A program made the translations under genes and the position numbers. The notes under the pieces were generated by a model. The model ran no database searches. It was not told the origin of the DNA and worked only from the letters and a program-made list of their open reading frames with translations. A stretch of DNA of 64,000 nt, from contig NZ_FTOY01000009.1 of the NCBI RefSeq assembly GCF_900156885.1, positions 62,001 through 126,000 of the forward strand, in the 5' to 3' direction. Shown piece by piece: positions 1-8,365 of this stretch (position 1 is the stretch's first letter; each line of letters begins with the position of its first letter). This stretch comes from Limosilactobacillus caccae. GTDB lineage: Bacteria; Bacillota; Bacilli; Lactobacillales; Lactobacillaceae.

Positions 1-197
1 TTGTTTGTAAAGTCATCAAGGTTTTCGGTCGTTAAGACCATATCCGCCTTACCGCCGTCTTTTGTTGGAACCTTAAATGATTGGAGCAAGCCGGCAAAGT
101 CTAAGACTGCTGCCTGTACCCCGTTATCATTGGTCAAGATGTACTTAGTAACTTTCTTTCCTTTATATGTGCCAAAAGGAACTTTAGCAATTTCCAT
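1..197 (-). CDS. galM: Aldose 1-epimerase (galactose mutarotase), 5' part only
   Basis: Reading the minus strand from an ATG at 197, preceded by a GAGGAGG ribosome binding site, gives 65 residues beginning MEIAKVPFGTYKGKKVTKY and continuing with an ILTNDNG segment and a DFAGLLQSF-like stretch. This is the typical N-terminal beta-strand start of GalM, which interconverts alpha and beta anomers of galactose or glucose in the cytoplasm. The rest lies beyond the left edge, so the catalytic His and Glu cannot be seen. Two cre boxes flank the likely promoter, suggesting carbon catabolite repression by CcpA. Other aldose 1-epimerase-like proteins start similarly, so the exact sugar is not certain. 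Confidence 0.8.
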   Translation of the reverse strand, partial: MEIAKVPFGTYKGKKVTKYILTNDNGVQAAVLDFAGLLQSFKVPTKDGGKADMVLTTENLDDFTN

Positions 198-214
198 AAT
201 ATATAGCCTCCTCA

Positions 215-230
215 AAGTAAGCGCTTTAAT
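215..230 (-). promoter_or_regulatory. cre-like CcpA box downstream of the galM promoter
   Basis: On the minus strand the site reads ATTAAAGCGCTTACTT, a close match to the catabolite-responsive element centred on CG. It lies between the probable -10 (241-246) and the galM start, a position where CcpA would block transcription. Confidence 0.6.
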
Positions 231-240
231 TGCAAGTCCT

Positions 241-246
241 ATTTTA
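241..246 (-). promoter_or_regulatory. Likely galM -10 (extended)
   Basis: The minus strand carries TGTGGTAAAAT, an extended -10 (TGn plus TAAAAT), about 45 nt upstream of the galM start. No good -35 is visible; the perfect cre at 270-283 lies just upstream of where it would be. Confidence 0.4.
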
Positions 247-269
247 CCACACTTTGTTAGCAAAATAAG

Positions 270-283
270 TGCAATCGTTTGCA
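270..283. promoter_or_regulatory. Perfect cre (CcpA) box between galM and the small ORF
   Basis: TGCAATCGTTTGCA matches the 14-base cre consensus TGNAANCGNTTNCA at every fixed position. It lies in the divergent region, immediately upstream of the galM promoter and about 30 nt before an extended -10 (TGGTAAAAT, 307-315) on the plus strand, so it could act on either side. Confidence 0.7.
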
Positions 284-354
284 CGAAAAGAAAAATTTAA
301 AAATTGTGGTAAAATTTAGCTAGAAAAGGCAAAATAAAAAGTGGGGTGCGTTCA

Positions 355-528
355 GTGGCGGAAAGTAAGTGGGAAAAGTTTAAACGGTCGTTCAATAAGA
401 ACTTTATTGATTTTTTAATGATCTTTGCAGCAGAAGATCGCTTTATTCACCAGCATAAGAAGCGGAGCAGTCAGATTAAAGAGCTAGACCGCTACGGTGA
501 AGAAAAAACGGAAAATGAAAATAAATAG
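355..528 (+). CDS. Small hypothetical protein (57 aa)
   Basis: I do not recognise the family. The GTG at 355 follows a GGGG purine run at normal distance; a second GTG at 346 would give 60 residues. The product begins MAESKWEKFKRSFNKNF, then a short hydrophobic patch (FLMIFAAE), then a strongly charged tail ending in EEKTENENK. It has no signal peptide and no convincing membrane helix, so it is probably a small cytoplasmic, basic-then-acidic protein. It is monocistronic: an extended -10 (TGGTAAAAT) lies about 40 nt upstream and a strong terminator follows at once. The clean bracketing by promoter, ribosome site and terminator supports a real gene. Confidence 0.6.
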   Translation: MAESKWEKFKRSFNKNFIDFLMIFAAEDRFIHQHKKRSSQIKELDRYGEEKTENENK

Positions 529-530
529 GT

Positions 531-574
531 AATAAGCATCAACTCCATTCGCTGAAGATGATGCTTATTTTTTA
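531..574 (+). terminator. Intrinsic terminator after the small ORF
   Basis: An 11-bp perfect stem (AATAAGCATCA at 531-541 with TGATGCTTATT at 559-569) is followed by a T run. Confidence 0.85.
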
Positions 575-775
575 TCGGCTGAATTGGAAATGTAATGATG
601 GATTATTAATAAGTATAACGTTTAGCAATTTAAATAACCGTCAAACCGCTAACTGAAAAACTTAATTAATGATAAGTGAATGATAATTTTTTGGATACAA
701 AATGACTGTTTGAGTGCGAAATAAATAAAAAATATTCTTTAAATTTATGGAATGATTATTGCTATAAGCTGAATG

Positions 776-832
776 AAGGCGTTTTTTTTTTTTTTTATCC
801 TTGATCGATCGAAAGATAAATAAAAACGCCTT
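776..832. repeat. Inverted repeat containing a T15 homopolymer tract
   Basis: AAGGCGTTTTT (776-786) is repeated inverted as AAAAACGCCTT (822-832). Fifteen consecutive T residues run from 782 to 796. The right arm touches the -35 hexamer of the downstream promoter at 831. It could be a terminator-like hairpin or a slippage-prone regulatory tract. Confidence 0.75.
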
Positions 833-859
833 GAAAGTGACGGATGGATTACTTAGAAT
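831..859 (+). promoter_or_regulatory. Promoter of the LPXTG surface protein gene
   Basis: TTGAAA (831-836), a 17-bp spacer, then TAGAAT (854-859). The leader is about 48 nt and ends in a GGGAGG ribosome site at 901-906. Confidence 0.7.
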
Positions 860-913
860 GAGAATGTTGATAGATGCAATTCTTTTTAGAGTTAATTTAT
901 GGGAGGATTATTT

Positions 914-3900
914 ATGAGCAATAATCAAATGCATTACAAGATGTACAAAGCAAAGAAAAGCATTGTATACGCAGGATTAATGACCACTGCTACTTTGGCA
1001 GGGCTTACTTTAGCAAACGTAAACACAACGAACGTTCACGCTGATGCAGCCCAACCTGCAGTAGTCGCTACTACACAAGAAAACCAGGCAGTTGATCCAG
1101 TATCTGCTGCACAAAAGAACGTTGATGAAGCTAGCACCGCAGTTGACAACGCTGAAAAGGCAGTTGTTCCTGCTAAGGACGCTAATGACGCTGCACAACA
1201 AAATGTGACAGATGCGAAGAACACTGCCCAAACAACTGCAAAGAATGATGTGAATACTGCTAATGACGCAGCAAACACTGCATTTAACGGTTACAAGGAT
1301 GCTCAAGCAACTGCTGATAGTACTACTAGTATCTCAACCAGCATTGCTAATTCATACGATCAATTTAAGAACGGTAACACTGACAACGCATTGAACGCCG
1401 CTCAACAAGCAGTTACTACTGCTCAAGATCTTTACGGATTCAACAGCTCACAAGTACAAACTGCACAAAACGTAATTGATGCAATCAACAAGTACCAACA
1501 AAACCCAACTGTTTCTAACAAGGATGATGCAGTTAAGGCCCTTACTACTTACGAAGCTTACGCTAATGACCAAATCAAGGCCGCTCAACAAGCAGTTAAC
1601 GATGCCCAAGCTAACCAAGATAAGTTACAAAAGGAACTCGACGTAGCCCTTGCTGCACAAAAGAACGCCAAGACTGCGCTTGACAACGCTAAGTTAGCTA
1701 CTAACCTCGACGCATTAAAGAAGGCTTACGAAGAAGCTTCAGCAAATGCCGCTAAGGCAACGAGTGCACTTAATGATGCTAATAATAAATTGCAAAAAGC
1801 TCAAGATGCTTGGAATACAGCACGGAATAATCAAACAAAAGCTGCTGAAAAGTTAGGTACTACTAACCCAGACATGGCTGCATTGCAAAAGGCTGTTACT
1901 GCGGCTGATGCCCAAGTAAAGTCAACTAAGGCTGATTTAGATGATGCTAATGCTGGCCTTAAGAATGCAACTACCAAGCATGATAATGCACTTAATAATC
2001 AAACTAAGGAAGTGCTTAACTTAGCAGCTAAGCAAGAAGTATTGGCTGCAAAGCAAAGTGAATTAGCTGCTGCTAAAAAGGCTGCTGCTGAGGCTAAGCC
2101 TCTTGAAAACCACTTCTATACTTCAGATGAATGGGATGAAGTTCGACAAAAAGCAGCTCAGGCTAATGCTGCTGTAAAGCGTGCCCAAGATGCCGTTGAC
2201 GCTGCGAAAATTGAAGTTAATGAAGCCCAAGATGGTGTTAGTTCCACTACCAAGGATGCTAACGATGCTGGTGGCCACTTAGTTTATGTTCAGTCCTTAC
2301 AACAAAAGGCTCAAAAAGCATACGAAAAGGCTCTTGCTGACCAAGCTGCTGCTAAGGACAAGTTAACTGCTGCTAATGATTATGAAGCTGCAAGCAAGGC
2401 TGCTAATGAAGCTGGAGCTAAGATTGGCCCAGCACAAGCCGCACAACAAGCTGCTCAAAAGGCAGCTGATGACGCGCTTAACGCTCAAACGAAGGCAGAA
2501 GCTAACTACAACAAGCTTCACCAGTTACAACAAAATGTCGTTGCTGCTCAAAAAGCCTTTGATGAAGCCCGGAATGCGCAAACTGTTGCAGCACAAAAAC
2601 TTGATGATGCAAAGCAATACCAACAAGCATCATTAGTAGCTGAAAAGGCTGCCACAGCCTTGAACAAGGCTAACAATGACTTTACGACTAAGCAGAATGC
2701 ATTAGATACTGCTCGTAAGCATCAAACCGACTTAGCAAACGAGTTAGGCACCACTAACCCAGACATGGCTGTATTACAAAAGGCTGTTACTGCAGCTGAT
2801 GCCCAAGTAAAGTCAACTAAGGCTGACTTAAATGATGCTAATGCTGGTCTTAATGCTGCAATTACCCAACATGATAAAGCACTTAATGATCAAACTAAGG
2901 AAGTGCTTAACTTAGCAGCTAAGCAAGAATTATTGGCTGCAAAGCAAAGTGAATTAGCTGCTGCCAAAAAGGCTGCTGCTGAGGCTAAGCCTCTTGAAAA
3001 CCACTTCTATACTTCAGATGAATGGGATGAAGTTCGACAAAAAGCAGCTCAGGCTAATGCTGCTGTAAAGCGTGCCCAAGATGCCGTTGACGCTGCGAAA
3101 ATTGAAGTTAATGAAGCCCAAGATGGTGTTAGTTCCACTACCAAGGATGCTAACGATGCTGGTGGCCACTTAGTTTATGTTCAGTCCTTACAACAAAAGG
3201 CTCAAAAAGCATACGAAAAGGCTCTTGCTGACCAAGCTGCTGCTAAGGATAAGTTGAACACTGCTAAGGAATATGTTGCCTTAGAAAAGACCATCAATGA
3301 TGACACTGCCAAGGTTGAAGCAGCTCGTCAAGCTAAAGAAGCCGCTCAAAAGGCATACGATGAAGCTCTTAATAATCAAACTAAGGCACAAACTAAGTTG
3401 GGCGATGACATGAACCCAGACATCACTGCTCTTCAAAAGGCATACGATGACGCTAGTGCTGCTGCTAACAAGGCTGGCTCAGACCTTAATGATGCTCAAG
3501 CAGCCTTAGACAAGGAAAACGAAGGGGTTATTAAGGCCCAAAAGGCATATGATGAAGCTACTGCTAAGGTTAACGACGCAACACGTGCCTTAAATGACGC
3601 TGCTGATGCTACTAAGAAGGCACAAACAGCATTTAACAATGCTAACGAATTTGCTACTGACGCTGCTGCATCATTTAGTGAATTCAATGCTGATCGTCCA
3701 GAAAATGCTTTGAACACTGCACAATCAATGCTACAAAAGGTTCAAAACGTTTATGGCTTTAACTCACCACAAACTGATGCTGCTGAAGCTTTGGTAGATG
3801 CTCTTAAGAACTTCTACCTTAACCCAACTTCACCAGCTGACAAGACTGAAACCTTGAAGACTATCCAAGCTCAACAAGATGTCTTCAACAAGGAAGTTGC

Positions 3901-4654
3901 CAATGCTAATGCTGCAAAGGACAAGGCTGAAGCTAAGTACAACGATGCACGTAAGAATGCAGACGCTGCACAAGCTATCCTTGACCGGGTAAACAACGGT
4001 GACTTTAGTGACTTCCCAGCTGTTGGTGATGCTGAAGCTGCTCAAAAGATTACTCAAGGTAACTATGACAACGCTTTGAAGAACTTAGAGATTGCAAAGG
4101 CTAACTTGGTTCGCGCTAACGCTAACCTTGACGCTGCAAAGAAGAACGCTGAAAGCAAGCCAGCAGGTAATCCAGATGGAAACAAGACTCCAGAAGGTAA
4201 CCCAGATGGAAACAAGACTCCAGAAGGTAACTCAGATGGAAACAAGACTCCAGAAGGTAACTCAGATGGAAACAAGGCTCCAGAAGGTAACTCAGATGGA
4301 AACAAGACTCCAGAAGGTAACTCAGATGGAAACAAGACTCCAGAAGCTAAGCCAGACGAAGGTGAAGATAGCAAGAAGGACACCCCTGCAAGTCAACCAA
4401 CTGACGAAGGTGACAAGAATGCTACCGACACTAAGAACAAGAACGAAAACACTGAAGTTACTAAGACTGACAAGGGTGCAGCCAATGTAACTCGTTCTGA
4501 ATACAAGGCAAGTGCTAACAAGCAAACTACCAAGGAAGCAAGTAACGAAACATTACCACAAACTGGTAATGAAAGTGGCGTTGCTGCAGTTGCCTTAGGT
4601 GCTGCTGCCGCTATGTTTGGTCTTGGTTTAGCTAGTAAGAAGCGTGAATACTAA
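914..4654 (+). CDS. LPXTG-anchored Ala-rich coiled-coil surface protein with long repeats
   Basis: 1,246 residues from the ATG at 914; the in-frame ATG at 899 is rejected because the GGGAGG ribosome site lies between the two. Residues 1-45 form a long signal peptide of the YKxxK type (HYKMYKAKKSIVYAG, then a hydrophobic core and a VHADA cleavage region). Residues 50-1080 are Ala-, Asp-, Lys- and Gln-rich heptad-like sequence, predicted coiled coil. Two related globular-looking segments sit near residues 139-220 and 910-1000 (each with NALN-AQ, YGFNS and NPT landmarks). A 297-residue unit occurs twice between them. Six NPDGNKTPEG-like decapeptides precede a Lys/Thr-rich wall-spanning stretch, LPQTG, a hydrophobic helix and KKREY, so sortase A should anchor it to peptidoglycan. 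No cysteine was noticed. Codons are those of a highly expressed gene. A role in adhesion or aggregation is inference only. Confidence 0.9.
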   Translation: MSNNQMHYKMYKAKKSIVYAGLMTTATLAGLTLANVNTTNVHADAAQPAVVATTQENQAVDPVSAAQKNVDEASTAVDNAEKAVVPAKDANDAAQQNVTDAKNTAQTTAKNDVNTANDAANTAFNGYKDAQATADSTTSISTSIANSYDQFKNGNTDNALNAAQQAVTTAQDLYGFNSSQVQTAQNVIDAINKYQQNPTVSNKDDAVKALTTYEAYANDQIKAAQQAVNDAQANQDKLQKELDVALAAQKNAKTALDNAKLATNLDALKKAYEEASANAAKATSALNDANNKLQKAQDAWNTARNNQTKAAEKLGTTNPDMAALQKAVTAADAQVKSTKADLDDANAGLKNATTKHDNALNNQTKEVLNLAAKQEVLAAKQSELAAAKKAAAEAKPLENHFYTSDEWDEVRQKAAQANAAVKRAQDAVDAAKIEVNEAQDGVSSTTKDANDAGGHLVYVQSLQQKAQKAYEKALADQAAAKDKLTAANDYEAASKAANEAGAKIGPAQAAQQAAQKAADDALNAQTKAEANYNKLHQLQQNVVAAQKAFDEARNAQTVAAQKLDDAKQYQQASLVAEKAATALNKANNDFTTKQNALDTARKHQTDLANELGTTNPDMAVLQKAVTAADAQVKSTKADLNDANAGLNAAITQHDKALNDQTKEVLNLAAKQELLAAKQSELAAAKKAAAEAKPLENHFYTSDEWDEVRQKAAQANAAVKRAQDAVDAAKIEVNEAQDGVSSTTKDANDAGGHLVYVQSLQQKAQKAYEKALADQAAAKDKLNTAKEYVALEKTINDDTAKVEAARQAKEAAQKAYDEALNNQTKAQTKLGDDMNPDITALQKAYDDASAAANKAGSDLNDAQAALDKENEGVIKAQKAYDEATAKVNDATRALNDAADATKKAQTAFNNANEFATDAAASFSEFNADRPENALNTAQSMLQKVQNVYGFNSPQTDAAEALVDALKNFYLNPTSPADKTETLKTIQAQQDVFNKEVANANAAKDKAEAKYNDARKNADAAQAILDRVNNGDFSDFPAVGDAEAAQKITQGNYDNALKNLEIAKANLVRANANLDAAKKNAESKPAGNPDGNKTPEGNPDGNKTPEGNSDGNKTPEGNSDGNKAPEGNSDGNKTPEGNSDGNKTPEAKPDEGEDSKKDTPASQPTDEGDKNATDTKNKNENTEVTKTDKGAANVTRSEYKASANKQTTKEASNETLPQTGNESGVAAVALGAAAAMFGLGLASKKREY
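1850..2363 (+). repeat. First copy of the ~514-bp internal repeat in the surface protein
   Basis: Encodes a block beginning LGTTNPDMA and ending AAKDKL. Copy two lies 891 bases (297 codons) downstream. Bases 2075-2358 are identical to 2966-3249 over 284 positions. Confidence 0.9.
2741..3254 (+). repeat. Second copy of the ~514-bp internal repeat in the surface protein
   Basis: Same block as the copy at 1850-2363, with scattered substitutions in its first part and none in the 284-base core. The period keeps the reading frame. Confidence 0.9.
4166..4345 (+). repeat. Six tandem 30-bp repeats (decapeptide NPDGNKTPEG-like)
   Basis: Exactly six contiguous 30-base units with a few single-base changes (Asn-Pro or Asn-Ser before Asp-Gly; one Ala for Thr). 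They encode a Pro/Gly-rich, extended spacer just before the wall-anchor region. There are no spacers between units, so this is not a CRISPR array. Confidence 0.95.
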
Positions 4655-4688
4655 GATCTAATCTGTTAATATATTTAGTAGATATACT

Positions 4689-4733
4689 AAAGGGCTGTGA
4701 CAAGGCTTTAGCTAGGTCACAACCCTTTTAGTT
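4689..4733 (+). terminator. Terminator of the surface protein gene
   Basis: AAGGGCTGTGAC pairs with GTCACAACCCTT across a short loop, followed by TTTTAGTTT. Confidence 0.85.
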
Positions 4734-4755
4734 TACTAATGAATAGGTGATAGAT

Positions 4756-5259
4756 ATGGATGGTTTAACAGAAACACTGCGTAAAGAAGAAGAAAACTAC
4801 AAGCAAGCCCAGCAATTTTATGAAAAGATGACGGAGAAGCATAAAAAGGCCAGCGCGGCCGTTACTGCTGCCCAGAGTACTTATGATGGGGTGAAGAATA
4901 TTGGTGACGAGGCCACCATTAAGGCTAGTGCCCGGCTGCTCCAAAGTGTCCAGCTAAACCTCAAACAGATTTCGACAAACCTTGAGATCAGCAAGGCGGG
5001 TGTCCAGGCGGCGAAGACTAACCTTGAAAATACCCGTCAGGCAGTCGAACTCAAACGGCTGAATCAGCAGGCAAGTAAAAAGGTAAGTAGCCCTAACCTG
5101 TTTGACCGTGGTGGGATTGACGAGCGCAAAATTGACTTTGCCCCAGAGCCACCGGCGACCGAAAAGAGTAACCACGAAGCGGATACACATAAGGATAGTT
5201 CGCCAGTGCGGATGACCCGGGCGCAATACCGTCAGCAGTTGCAAAAGGGGCAACACTAA
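4756..5259 (+). CDS. Coiled-coil cytoplasmic protein, function unknown
   Basis: 167 residues from the ATG at 4756, chosen because AGGTGA (4745-4750) is spaced five bases from it; a GTG at 4747 overlaps that site. Residues 1-110 are heptad-patterned and rich in Lys, Gln, Ala and Glu (LRKEEENYKQAQQFYEKM), strongly coiled-coil. The C-terminal third is Pro- and Ser-containing and probably flexible, ending in RAQYRQQLQKGQH. There is no signal peptide or membrane helix, so it should stay in the cytoplasm despite following a secreted coiled-coil protein. It is separated from that gene by a terminator and has its own terminator, shared with the convergent DUF2252 gene. I do not recognise the family. 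Confidence 0.7.
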   Translation: MDGLTETLRKEEENYKQAQQFYEKMTEKHKKASAAVTAAQSTYDGVKNIGDEATIKASARLLQSVQLNLKQISTNLEISKAGVQAAKTNLENTRQAVELKRLNQQASKKVSSPNLFDRGGIDERKIDFAPEPPATEKSNHEADTHKDSSPVRMTRAQYRQQLQKGQH

Positions 5260-5261
5260 TA

Positions 5262-5312
5262 AAAAGGATGGCAGATCCAGTTGAAAATGGTTGGATCTGC
5301 CATCTTTTTTAG
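5262..5312. terminator. Bidirectional terminator between convergent genes
   Basis: A perfect stem including GATGGCAGATCCA and TGGATCTGCCATC, flanked by A5 on the left and T6 on the right. It serves the coiled-coil gene and the DUF2252 gene, whose stop codon it overlaps. Confidence 0.9.
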
Positions 5313-6706
5313 TTTATTAAGTGGCCCTTCTCGAGGGCATCTTTGAACTGGTCATAGTCTTTGGTAACTTGGTCGACATAGTTAAGGGCCCAGTCAGCTA
5401 AGCCCTTATCCAGGTTCTTTTGGTGCTTTAAGTACCCGCGAATCATTGGGGCGGTAGGACTTTGGAAGTGTGCCATTGCAAGCAGGTAAGCACAGGTTTG
5501 ACAATACAGTTGGAAACTTTCAAAGTCCAATTTGCTAACATTAATTGATTCCTTCATGTCACGGAACTGGCGAACATAGTAGCTCCGGCCAGCAAAGGTC
5601 GTGCTGGCAAGGAAGGGATCCGAAGAAGATTGGAGAACCCGCTGGGCGGTAACAATCCGTTGTCCGGCCATCCCCCCGTTCTTTATTGCCTGTTGAACCG
5701 GCAGATTGAGCAGGTTATAGCGGAGGGGCATTGCTTCCTTAATCTGCAAGACCAGGTGGCTACCGTCATTGCCAGTTAACATCATCAGGTAGCAACGGGT
5801 ACCGAAACTACCAACCCCCACGCTATAACGGATGATATCTGAAATGTGAAAGTTGGCTAAGAGAACGCGTACATCAGCACTAACCCGCTCCCGGTAACGG
5901 TTAAAGCCAAGGACAAGTTGCTGGTAACGAACGGCGCTCAGGTGACGTGCCCGTGGCGGATTGTCACGGAAGACAAGGTTACCCTGGTTGTTGACTGTCG
6001 CCATTTTTTGAATGATCTCTTCGGAGTTGCTCCGCTGGCTTTTCTTGAGGATTTTATCGAGAATTTCCTTCATTTTATCGGACACATCGCCAAATGATTC
6101 GATTGCTTCCCCCATATCTTCATAGGCAAAGGAGAAGTAAAACAGCTGGGATAACGTCATCTTATTGGCGCTTTTGACGGCATGGCGGTAGGTCTTCGTG
6201 GTGAGGGTAAGGAGATTATATAAGTCATCCTTGTTAAAGCCGTTTTCCTCCCCGGCTAGTTCTGCGCTGACCAACAGGCGTTTTAAGTCACTCTCCCAGT
6301 TGCCGATTCGGGATTCGTCAAAGTCGTTTAAGCCAAAGAGAAGTTGCCGTTCGGGGGAGGCATAGAAGCCAAAGTTATTGACGTGGGCATCCCCACAGAT
6401 AATAATTGGCAAACCGCTTTGGTGTTGCTTCTTAAGGTCTTGTTCCATTAACTCGGCCGTGCCCCTAAAGAAGGCAAAGCGGCTCGCAATCATTCGCTGG
6501 TGGCGAAGGGGGAGGAGTTCGGGAATCATGTTGGACTCGGTCAACTGAATGCTCTTGATCGGGTCCCGGTCAACGGGAATGAAGGTACTGAGCATTTCGC
6601 TAGTGATTCGTTTCCGTTGTTGTTTTCCGGTATTTTCTAGCTCTGCTTTTGTTTTATTTACCTGGATCTTGCGCAGGTCAAATATATCGAGATTTTGGTT
6701 GATCAA
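5309..6706 (-). CDS. DUF2252 family protein
   Basis: 465 residues starting with TTG (MINQNLDIF) about 11 bases after an AAGGATGG ribosome site on the minus strand. It shows the family's hallmark blocks in order: RFAFFRGTAELMEQDL (around residue 75), CGDAHVNNFGFY (around 105) and FGLNDFDESRIG (around 125), followed by a mostly helical remainder. DUF2252 proteins have no established activity. The GD-H-N-FG and DFDE blocks resemble the catalytic and metal-binding loops of aminoglycoside phosphotransferase-like kinases, which suggests, but does not show, a small-molecule kinase. It is cytoplasmic, with no membrane segment. It is monocistronic and divergent from the next gene. Confidence 0.85.
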   Translation of the reverse strand: MINQNLDIFDLRKIQVNKTKAELENTGKQQRKRITSEMLSTFIPVDRDPIKSIQLTESNMIPELLPLRHQRMIASRFAFFRGTAELMEQDLKKQHQSGLPIIICGDAHVNNFGFYASPERQLLFGLNDFDESRIGNWESDLKRLLVSAELAGEENGFNKDDLYNLLTLTTKTYRHAVKSANKMTLSQLFYFSFAYEDMGEAIESFGDVSDKMKEILDKILKKSQRSNSEEIIQKMATVNNQGNLVFRDNPPRARHLSAVRYQQLVLGFNRYRERVSADVRVLLANFHISDIIRYSVGVGSFGTRCYLMMLTGNDGSHLVLQIKEAMPLRYNLLNLPVQQAIKNGGMAGQRIVTAQRVLQSSSDPFLASTTFAGRSYYVRQFRDMKESINVSKLDFESFQLYCQTCAYLLAMAHFQSPTAPMIRGYLKHQKNLDKGLADWALNYVDQVTKDYDQFKDALEKGHLIN

Positions 6707-6823
6707 AAGAGGCCCATCCTTTCACTGGCAGTACGTTATTACCTATTTTAGTGCTTTTATTTTGTTTGTAAATATGGTTTGATTGACTTAAGAGTGAAAT
6801 TAATAAATGGGGAGTTGATAAGG

Positions 6824-8365
6824 TTGATTATTGGAGTTGAGTATTCCTTCGCGCAGCACTTACACGTAAACTCACAGGTGTTAGATGTTGATGAGTTGCA
6901 AGACGATCCGAATGCCTGGTCTGTGCGGGTTGCGGGGGAATTTATGATCGTGATGAATAATAAGACGGCATTGCCAATCATCGTTCGTTACCCCCAGCGC
7001 TTCAACGATTCACGATCGTTTGTGGCGGCGGTTAAGCGGGGATTTATCCAGTTACTTGAGATTTCGCCAGTTCCCCATGCAAAGATTCGGATGATTCGCG
7101 ACGCCCAGTTTAGTAATGTAAAGTTTACCCGGCAGATCCAGCCGCTGACCCAGCGCCGGCTCCAGGTCTACCAGAACAAGCTGATGGGGCCCAATGCGAC
7201 GATTGACTGGGATAAGGACCCGACCAATGCGGAGATTGCTTTGCAGCTCGCGGAGGAGACCAAAATTCCAGTTGACGATGGTGGGGAGGGCCCGTTTGTG
7301 ATGGATGCCTTTGAAGACTATACCGTCACCGCCTTTAATGTCAATGCCCACCCCGCGTTTAATGAGCATAACCGGCGCTACCTTTACCGCTCCCAATCGA
7401 TCAATGACATTATGAACGCGACCGTCGTTAGCCAGCAGATTATGGATGATTATGAGCTTTATTTAGAGCAACGGGGGAAGAGCGAAACGATTATTGACCG
7501 TGATCTTGATTGTGCCGCGGACTACTTAAGCTACTGTGAGGCCCTGGGCCAGTCGATCCTCGACGATGTGACCCTGGTCTACCACTACCTGATCAATTAT
7601 GAAAAACTGCATGATGAGCGGATATCTGAGACCCGCTTTAAGCAGATGGGCTATGCTTTCCGCGAGTTTGCCCGGTTTATGCGCAATGAGGACCTGTTTA
7701 ATAGCAATGACTTTGATAAGTTTGTCCAGGCCGTTAGCCAGGGCGTGAAGGACTTTAACTCTAAGCAGCGGCACTACCACCTCCAGCGGATCTTTCGTGA
7801 TATGCAGCGGCAGGTCCAGGTGCAACGGGAGCATGCCCTCCAGCATGTAAACAAGCGTTACCGCGTTGATGTTGAACTAATCGACTATCAGCCAACGATG
7901 TGGCGGCAGTTTACCATTAACGGGGCGACCCGCTTAGACCGGCTATGCTTCATTATCCTGGCGGCCTTTAATGCGGATGGTAACCACCTCTTTGAATTGC
8001 AGGAGGGGACGACCCGCTTCCAATTACCGATTTTTGACAGTGGCTTTGACCATGACCAGGATATGACCAAGGTGTGGCTCGGTGACTACCGGGGGACGAA
8101 TGACTTTGTGTTAACCTACGATTTCGGTGATATGTGGCAGTTTAAAGTGAGGGTGACCGCGGTCAAGGCCAACCCCCTGATGACTTATAGTGGTCCTGAG
8201 ATGGTCGATGGTTACGGGCAGGGCATCCTCGATGATATTGGTGGGGTGGACGGCCTAATGCAGGCGGCCAAGGACGACCCAACCATCAACCAGCAGCTCG
8301 ACGTGAAAAGGTTTAACGCTGGCTGGGCAAAGAAAATTGAAAAGATCCGCAACTGTTATGAATAA
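6824..8365 (+). CDS. DUF6933-like / plasmid pRiA4b ORF-3-like two-domain protein
   Basis: 513 residues from the TTG at 6824, chosen because GGAG (6811-6814) lies nine bases upstream; the frame is open from 6779. Residues 1-110 (IIGVEYSFAQHL ... W-VR-GEFMIVMNNKT) resemble the DUF6933 domain. The middle is helical, with a putative SAM-like or integrase-N-like stretch (YELYLEQRGKSE-T--RDLDCAADYLSYCEALG) that I cannot name with confidence. Residues 360-513 match the pRiA4b ORF-3-like domain: YRVDVELIDYQPTMWRQF, LTYDFGDMWQFKVRV and the terminal GYGQGILDDIGGVDG block. Neither end domain has a known biochemical function. It is soluble, and no partner gene is evident. Confidence 0.75.
   Translation: MIIGVEYSFAQHLHVNSQVLDVDELQDDPNAWSVRVAGEFMIVMNNKTALPIIVRYPQRFNDSRSFVAAVKRGFIQLLEISPVPHAKIRMIRDAQFSNVKFTRQIQPLTQRRLQVYQNKLMGPNATIDWDKDPTNAEIALQLAEETKIPVDDGGEGPFVMDAFEDYTVTAFNVNAHPAFNEHNRRYLYRSQSINDIMNATVVSQQIMDDYELYLEQRGKSETIIDRDLDCAADYLSYCEALGQSILDDVTLVYHYLINYEKLHDERISETRFKQMGYAFREFARFMRNEDLFNSNDFDKFVQAVSQGVKDFNSKQRHYHLQRIFRDMQRQVQVQREHALQHVNKRYRVDVELIDYQPTMWRQFTINGATRLDRLCFIILAAFNADGNHLFELQEGTTRFQLPIFDSGFDHDQDMTKVWLGDYRGTNDFVLTYDFGDMWQFKVRVTAVKANPLMTYSGPEMVDGYGQGILDDIGGVDGLMQAAKDDPTINQQLDVKRFNAGWAKKIEKIRNCYE

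Follow-up and report, generated by a model that had tools for sequence, protein, structure and literature searches.

A length-variable T-tract upstream of a surface-protein promoter in Limosilactobacillus, a putative slippage-prone promoter hinge

Variation of expression level or phase through promoter tracts is known mainly from pathogens. In three reports, the length of a tract or repeat sets the transcription of surface proteins (PMC4081817, PMC7098570, PMC2791445). At R28 of Streptococcus pyogenes, transcript abundance takes a distinct level with each of 9, 10 and 11 Ts, and at bca of group B Streptococcus a tract of 8–15 Ts lies 99 nt upstream (both PMC7098570). At nadA of Neisseria meningitidis, the repeat number sets the spacing between operators (PMC2791445). 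Here we describe a pure homopolymer of 15 Ts, read directly from the sequence, which occupies positions 782–796 (+ strand) of a 64,000-nt stretch of the Limosilactobacillus caccae genome (hereafter the window) and lies 5' of the promoter of a surface-protein gene. Among the literature matches listed (titles and abstract beginnings, with few subscription journals), none concerned such a tract in Limosilactobacillus, which is weak evidence of absence.

The gene, on the + strand like the other elements given here except the dyad, to which no strand is assigned, spans 914–4654 and encodes a 1,246-aa protein that carries a signal of the KxYKxGKxW type (PF19258) as well as an LPQTG anchor (PF00746). 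The ORF list starts it at 899; the ATG at 914 was preferred on the basis of the ribosome-binding site and the relatives. The ribosome-binding site GGGAGG (901–906) and the −35 TTGAAA (831–836) are invariant in the six species compared below, whereas the −10 (854–859) reads TAGAAT here and TAAAAT in the five relatives, always with a spacer of 17 nt; the transcription start is an inferred position. A promoter scan over 3 kb found three promoters against 5.7 expected from shuffles, that is, not above chance, so the promoter call rests on conservation in six species. The run is followed by 117 nt before the ATG. Upstream of it stands a conserved block, TTTATgGAATGATTaTTGcTAT (745–766), and downstream a conserved dyad (801–820) with the consensus TTTATC-AATCGAAA-GATAAA, here TTGATCGATCGAAAGATAAA, which is a candidate operator. 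A sequence-only reading had placed the T15 run within an inverted repeat whose right arm touches the −35; both points were confirmed, with perfect 11-nt arms, AAGGCGTTTTT (776–786) and AAAAACGCCTT (822–832), and a 2-nt overlap between the right arm and the −35. The intergenic region is preceded by a 60-aa ORF (346–528) with no Pfam or NCBIfam match, and 3' of this ORF lies a terminator-like hairpin (531–573) with an 11-nt perfect outer stem and a T-run at 568–573 (RNA fold −14.7 kcal/mol, z −3.9), which is absent from the list of our terminator scan, a scan that allows loops of 3–8 nt only. A second promoter at the upstream block was considered and rejected, given that the promoter scan listed none there and that no −35 is visible by eye.

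The T15 run is an outlier of the genome. In its own 2.24-Mb assembly, a search for runs of at least nine Ts returned the T15 and three runs of exactly 9, with none of 10–14, and searches for T12 and A13 returned the T15 as the sole match; the longest A/T run of the assembly is 15 and the second longest is 9. Among the maximal A/T runs of the window, 162 have length 5, the number declines to a single run of length 8, and the next is the one of 15. A first-order Markov model built from the window predicts 0.17 runs of at least 15 per genome, and since the same model overpredicts runs of at least 9 (123 per genome against 4 observed), the true expectation is far below 0.17. As a separate observation, A/T runs of at least 9 are about thirty times rarer in the whole genome than this window-based prediction. 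The region 560–913 is present in only one copy in its own genome by blastn, and the dyad, searched there with 3 mismatches allowed, gave one forward and three reverse matches against 3 and 2 for the reversed-pattern control. With a single blastn copy and extra dyad matches at control level, identity as a repeat or mobile element was discarded. No copies of the module (the tract with its conserved surroundings) were found in the plasmid collection, and positions 1–8000 of the window had no Rfam match at gathering score.

The module recurs in relatives. A blastn search with 560–913 against 56 genomes matched seven of them, the own genome included; the three strongest non-self matches sit before a related gene, and the remaining three are stretches of 22–42 nt outside the tract and dyad. 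A search pattern drafted from the window and the three strongest relatives found the module in 6 of 50 genomes of the genus, with one copy each, two of these being new beyond the genomes from which the pattern was built, and the reversed pattern had one match in the same 50 genomes. Besides the window, the carriers are L. rudii STM3_1, L. balticus BG-AF3-A, 'L. reuteri' WF-AA1-C, Lactobacillus sp. 0.1XD8-4 and L. caviae CCM 8609; the six sequences are few and related, from one clade, with one genome per species. When 84,980 species genomes were scanned for exact matches, five records came up, all from Limosilactobacillus or Lactobacillus sp., the own genome's record not being among them. All six modules precede related KxYKxGKxW-type genes, the N-termini of the five relatives being 68–74% identical to that of the window, and on its other flank the sp. 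0.1XD8-4 module has a divergent ORF as neighbour, which resembles the one at 3–284 of the window. The N-terminus has a match in 38 genomes, own included, and the upstream region was inspected in 19 of them, at one locus per genome and among the stronger matches; the module was present at 6 of these homologous loci and absent at 13. Upstream of the 13 module-free loci the longest A/T run is 11, with only 117, 130 and 182 nt of upstream sequence in three of them and an uncertain start codon in some. A search of the species-genome collection by the protein N-terminus gave 55 pattern matches, none of which was confirmed; it missed the orthologues in that collection, which the exact DNA scan revealed.

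Other long runs were seen in related genomes. In L. caviae (locus L086), a T14 run at 2728–2741 precedes a gene on the − strand, so that on the gene strand an A14 stands 3 nt before TATAAT; TTGCCG lies 21 nt before TATAAT, and a shorter run would restore the usual spacer of 17. This is a candidate phase-variable promoter, and its gene product presumably carries a YSIRK-like signal. An intergenic element of ~170 nt was found in four copies in three species (L018, ~1350–1516; L038, ~1499–1657, − strand; L083, ~2319–2487; L084, ~1989–2160), each then followed by its own T15–T19 run. Two copies lie directly after an ORF that we take to be PhoU-like, and a third one gene further. In the consensus fold of this element, 6 of 33 pairs show two-sided changes in one or more of the sequences, but the covariation term, at +0.62, is unfavourable; there was no Rfam match at gathering score. 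An A14 run in sp. 0.1XD8-4 (L023, 1501–1514) and an A15 run in 'L. reuteri' WF-AA1-C (L085, 2099–2113) have similar surroundings and stand 181 and 193 nt, respectively, before the same ORF (MAGLYGK...) in the two species, presumably encoding a glutamate-decarboxylase-like protein.

In the order window, rudii, balticus, reuteri WF, sp. 0.1XD8-4 and caviae, the tract of the module is 15, 17, 15, 14, 13 and 8 nt long, these lengths being taken from assemblies with a possible error of a base or so. The upstream block lies 38, 38, 38, 38, 39 and 38 nt from the tract (the difference of two computed distances, taken from the start region of the block), and the tract ends 11, 10, 9, 10, 9 and 4 nt before the ATCGAAAGATAA part of the dyad, which is itself 23 nt from the −35 in all six. 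The distances from block to dyad are 64, 65, 62, 62, 61 and 50 nt, and those from the −10 to the ATG are 54, 54, 55, 57, 59 and 52 nt. Given the fixed spacings elsewhere, only the run and the handful of bases after it change in length between the block and the −10. Invariant columns make up 17 of 20 in the dyad, 6 of 6 in the −35, 5 of 6 in the −10, 11 of 22 in the block (a figure biased upward, because the block limits were set after viewing the alignment) and 16 of 119 far upstream. The tract sits between the core promoter and a conserved block at fixed distance, the block being a putative binding element whose helical phasing against the dyad was not significant (Rayleigh p ~0.11, n=6, related sequences), and the dyad, TTTATC-N8-GATAAA, looks like an operator. 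These alignments support the assignment of the tract to the promoter region of the LPXTG protein by the sequence-only reading, as it recurs in place with five lengths over six species and with the spacing of the flanks kept. Judged from the aligned sequences, the tract would be a variable hinge between two fixed parts, and its fixed place and differing lengths in five related species suggest that tract length may tune the amount of protein.

The same anatomy can be read in other ways. The tract might be passive, stiff or curved A/T-rich DNA that serves as an upstream element, its exact length being irrelevant and no switch being involved. L. caviae manages with T8, and ATAAAAACG at 820–828, just 5' of the −35, fits what we take to be the proximal UP-element consensus; mixed A/T sequence would suffice for such a role, however, yet pure runs of 13–17 stand in five of the six species despite a far upstream flank that is on average only ~50% identical, and we consider this explanation unlikely, while giving it real weight. 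Alternatively, a palindromic operator could have contained, in its left arm, an ancestral run that grew and is regenerated by slippage without having any function of its own. To the eye, the left arm of L. caviae, CGTTTTTTTTATC, is a rough mirror image of the right arm, which would fit growth of the run within the operator, and the segment between the run and the dyad is likewise variable. Long A/T runs are nevertheless rare here (4 against 123 expected), so that a functionless run of 13–17 at one place in five species would be unexpected, which makes such a relic improbable. The run could also be the flexible left arm of a recognition site, with a regulator binding the palindrome CGTTTT..TTTATC/GATAAA..AAAACG. 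A CG before the run in six of six sequences, the invariant AAAA of the right arm and the strong conservation of the inner dyad speak for this, but outer-arm pairing is disrupted in four of the six sequences, only one pair has a two-sided change, and the distance from the start of the run to the dyad varies by 15 nt; we regard this reading as decidedly improbable.

The inverted repeat raises the further possibility of an RNA or DNA hairpin that terminates transcription or insulates the promoter. Counting distinct perfect inverted repeats of 11 nt or longer (loop 3–60) gives 14 in the window, so the repeat alone is not rare. Its perfect 11-bp arms are accompanied by a fold energy below that of shuffles (z-scores for 766–842 of −2.1 for the + strand, whether folded as DNA or RNA, and −3.7 for − strand RNA). 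Among the six species the exact arms occur in this genome only. Of the six outer pairs that contain G or C, none is broken in the window or in L. rudii, which can form all six if three G-T/T-G pairs are counted, whereas two are broken in balticus, two in reuteri WF, three in sp. 0.1XD8-4 and one in caviae. For the outer arms and dyad together, 89.3% of cells are paired, compared with 87.8% for shuffled versions, 87 of 500 of which attain 89.3%, and for the outer stem 83.3% are paired; slid versions of the structure pair only 33–54%, a gap that is partly explained by the conserved dyad and the T-run. A hairpin with covariation was rejected, since 308 of 500 shuffles also reach one pair with a two-sided change. 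The main signal is conservation of the dyad sequence and not of a hairpin. As for an intrinsic terminator, the T-run lies in the 5' arm, GAAAGTG follows the 3' arm, and the scan for loops of 3–8 nt does not list it. Neither termination nor insulation by the hairpin is supported, with arms that are disrupted in all relatives but L. rudii, covariation at shuffle level, no + strand T-run 3' of the stem, a terminator-like hairpin already in place at 531–573 and no promoter predicted between that hairpin and the tract; a hairpin function is, in our judgement, very improbable. The segment between the arms has the same orientation in all six genomes, one per species; an invertible promoter is known at msa of L. 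plantarum (PMC8493755).

Our best reading, on which belief and doubt are evenly balanced, is that the tract is a slippage-prone, length-variable promoter hinge that would tune the expression of the surface protein. The run would gain or lose Ts through replication slippage, and each step of one T would displace the upstream block and rotate it, by ~34 degrees, against the dyad and the core promoter. The changed geometry could alter how RNA polymerase, through its alpha subunit, or a dyad-binding regulator cooperates with the upstream DNA. Cells of one population might then make differing amounts of the surface protein, so that the tract would act as a rheostat and not as an on/off switch. The length of 15 against a next-longest run of 9, the module in 6 of 50 genomes, the fixed spacings, the conservation and the precedents of sabA, R28 and nadA argue for this hinge. 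Against it we count that L. caviae has the module with T8 only, so that a long tract is not indispensable, that the bases between the run and the dyad also vary (4–11 nt), that 34 nt separate the end of the tract from the −35, a longer distance than in sabA, whose tract is adjoining, and that 13 of 19 homologous loci are without the module and the phasing gave p ~0.11. We rank the readings in the order hinge, passive A/T element, relic, run as part of an operator and hairpin. With rather more doubt than belief, we further propose a homopolymer rheostat in gut lactobacilli, a single-target module in six species of the Limosilactobacillus group in which a candidate regulator would act on the TTTATC-N8-GATAAA dyad, slippage would set its cooperation with the block, and populations would hedge their surface display. 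If true, this would be a conserved case in commensals, in which cells of one strain would differ in their surface-protein display and perhaps, in consequence, in adhesion, and the lengths T8, T13, T14, T15 and T17 form a natural series for relating tract length to promoter output.

Each of the described systems shares part of this architecture. The adhesin gene sabA of Helicobacter pylori, like the gene here, has a pure T-run 5' of its −35 and additional elements farther out, but at sabA the run adjoins the −35 and both variation and output were measured, whereas here a conserved dyad lies in between and the case is built from sequence (PMC4081817). Spy1336/R28 and bca are, like the present gene, loci of Gram-positive cell-wall-anchored surface proteins with an upstream T-run; the gene that lies divergent from R28 has predicted DNA-binding motifs, and strains there differ by single Ts with a measured effect, whereas here no divergent regulator adjoins the intergenic region and one genome represents each species (PMC7098570). 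The TAAA repeat of nadA occupies −85 to −55, compared with about −84 to −70 for the tract here, counted from the inferred start site, and in both cases a variable spacer lies between an upstream and a promoter-proximal regulator site, both sites being candidates in our case; nadA, with its NadR operators, has a tetranucleotide repeat, a known repressor and IHF, while here the repeat is a mononucleotide run and the dyad a candidate operator (PMC2791445). What the locus has in common with sabA and R28 is a long pure run upstream of the −35, here of an LPXTG gene, whose length differs between genomes while its flanks are kept, and the tract is best read as a candidate member of this known kind of loci with promoter-upstream homopolymeric tracts.
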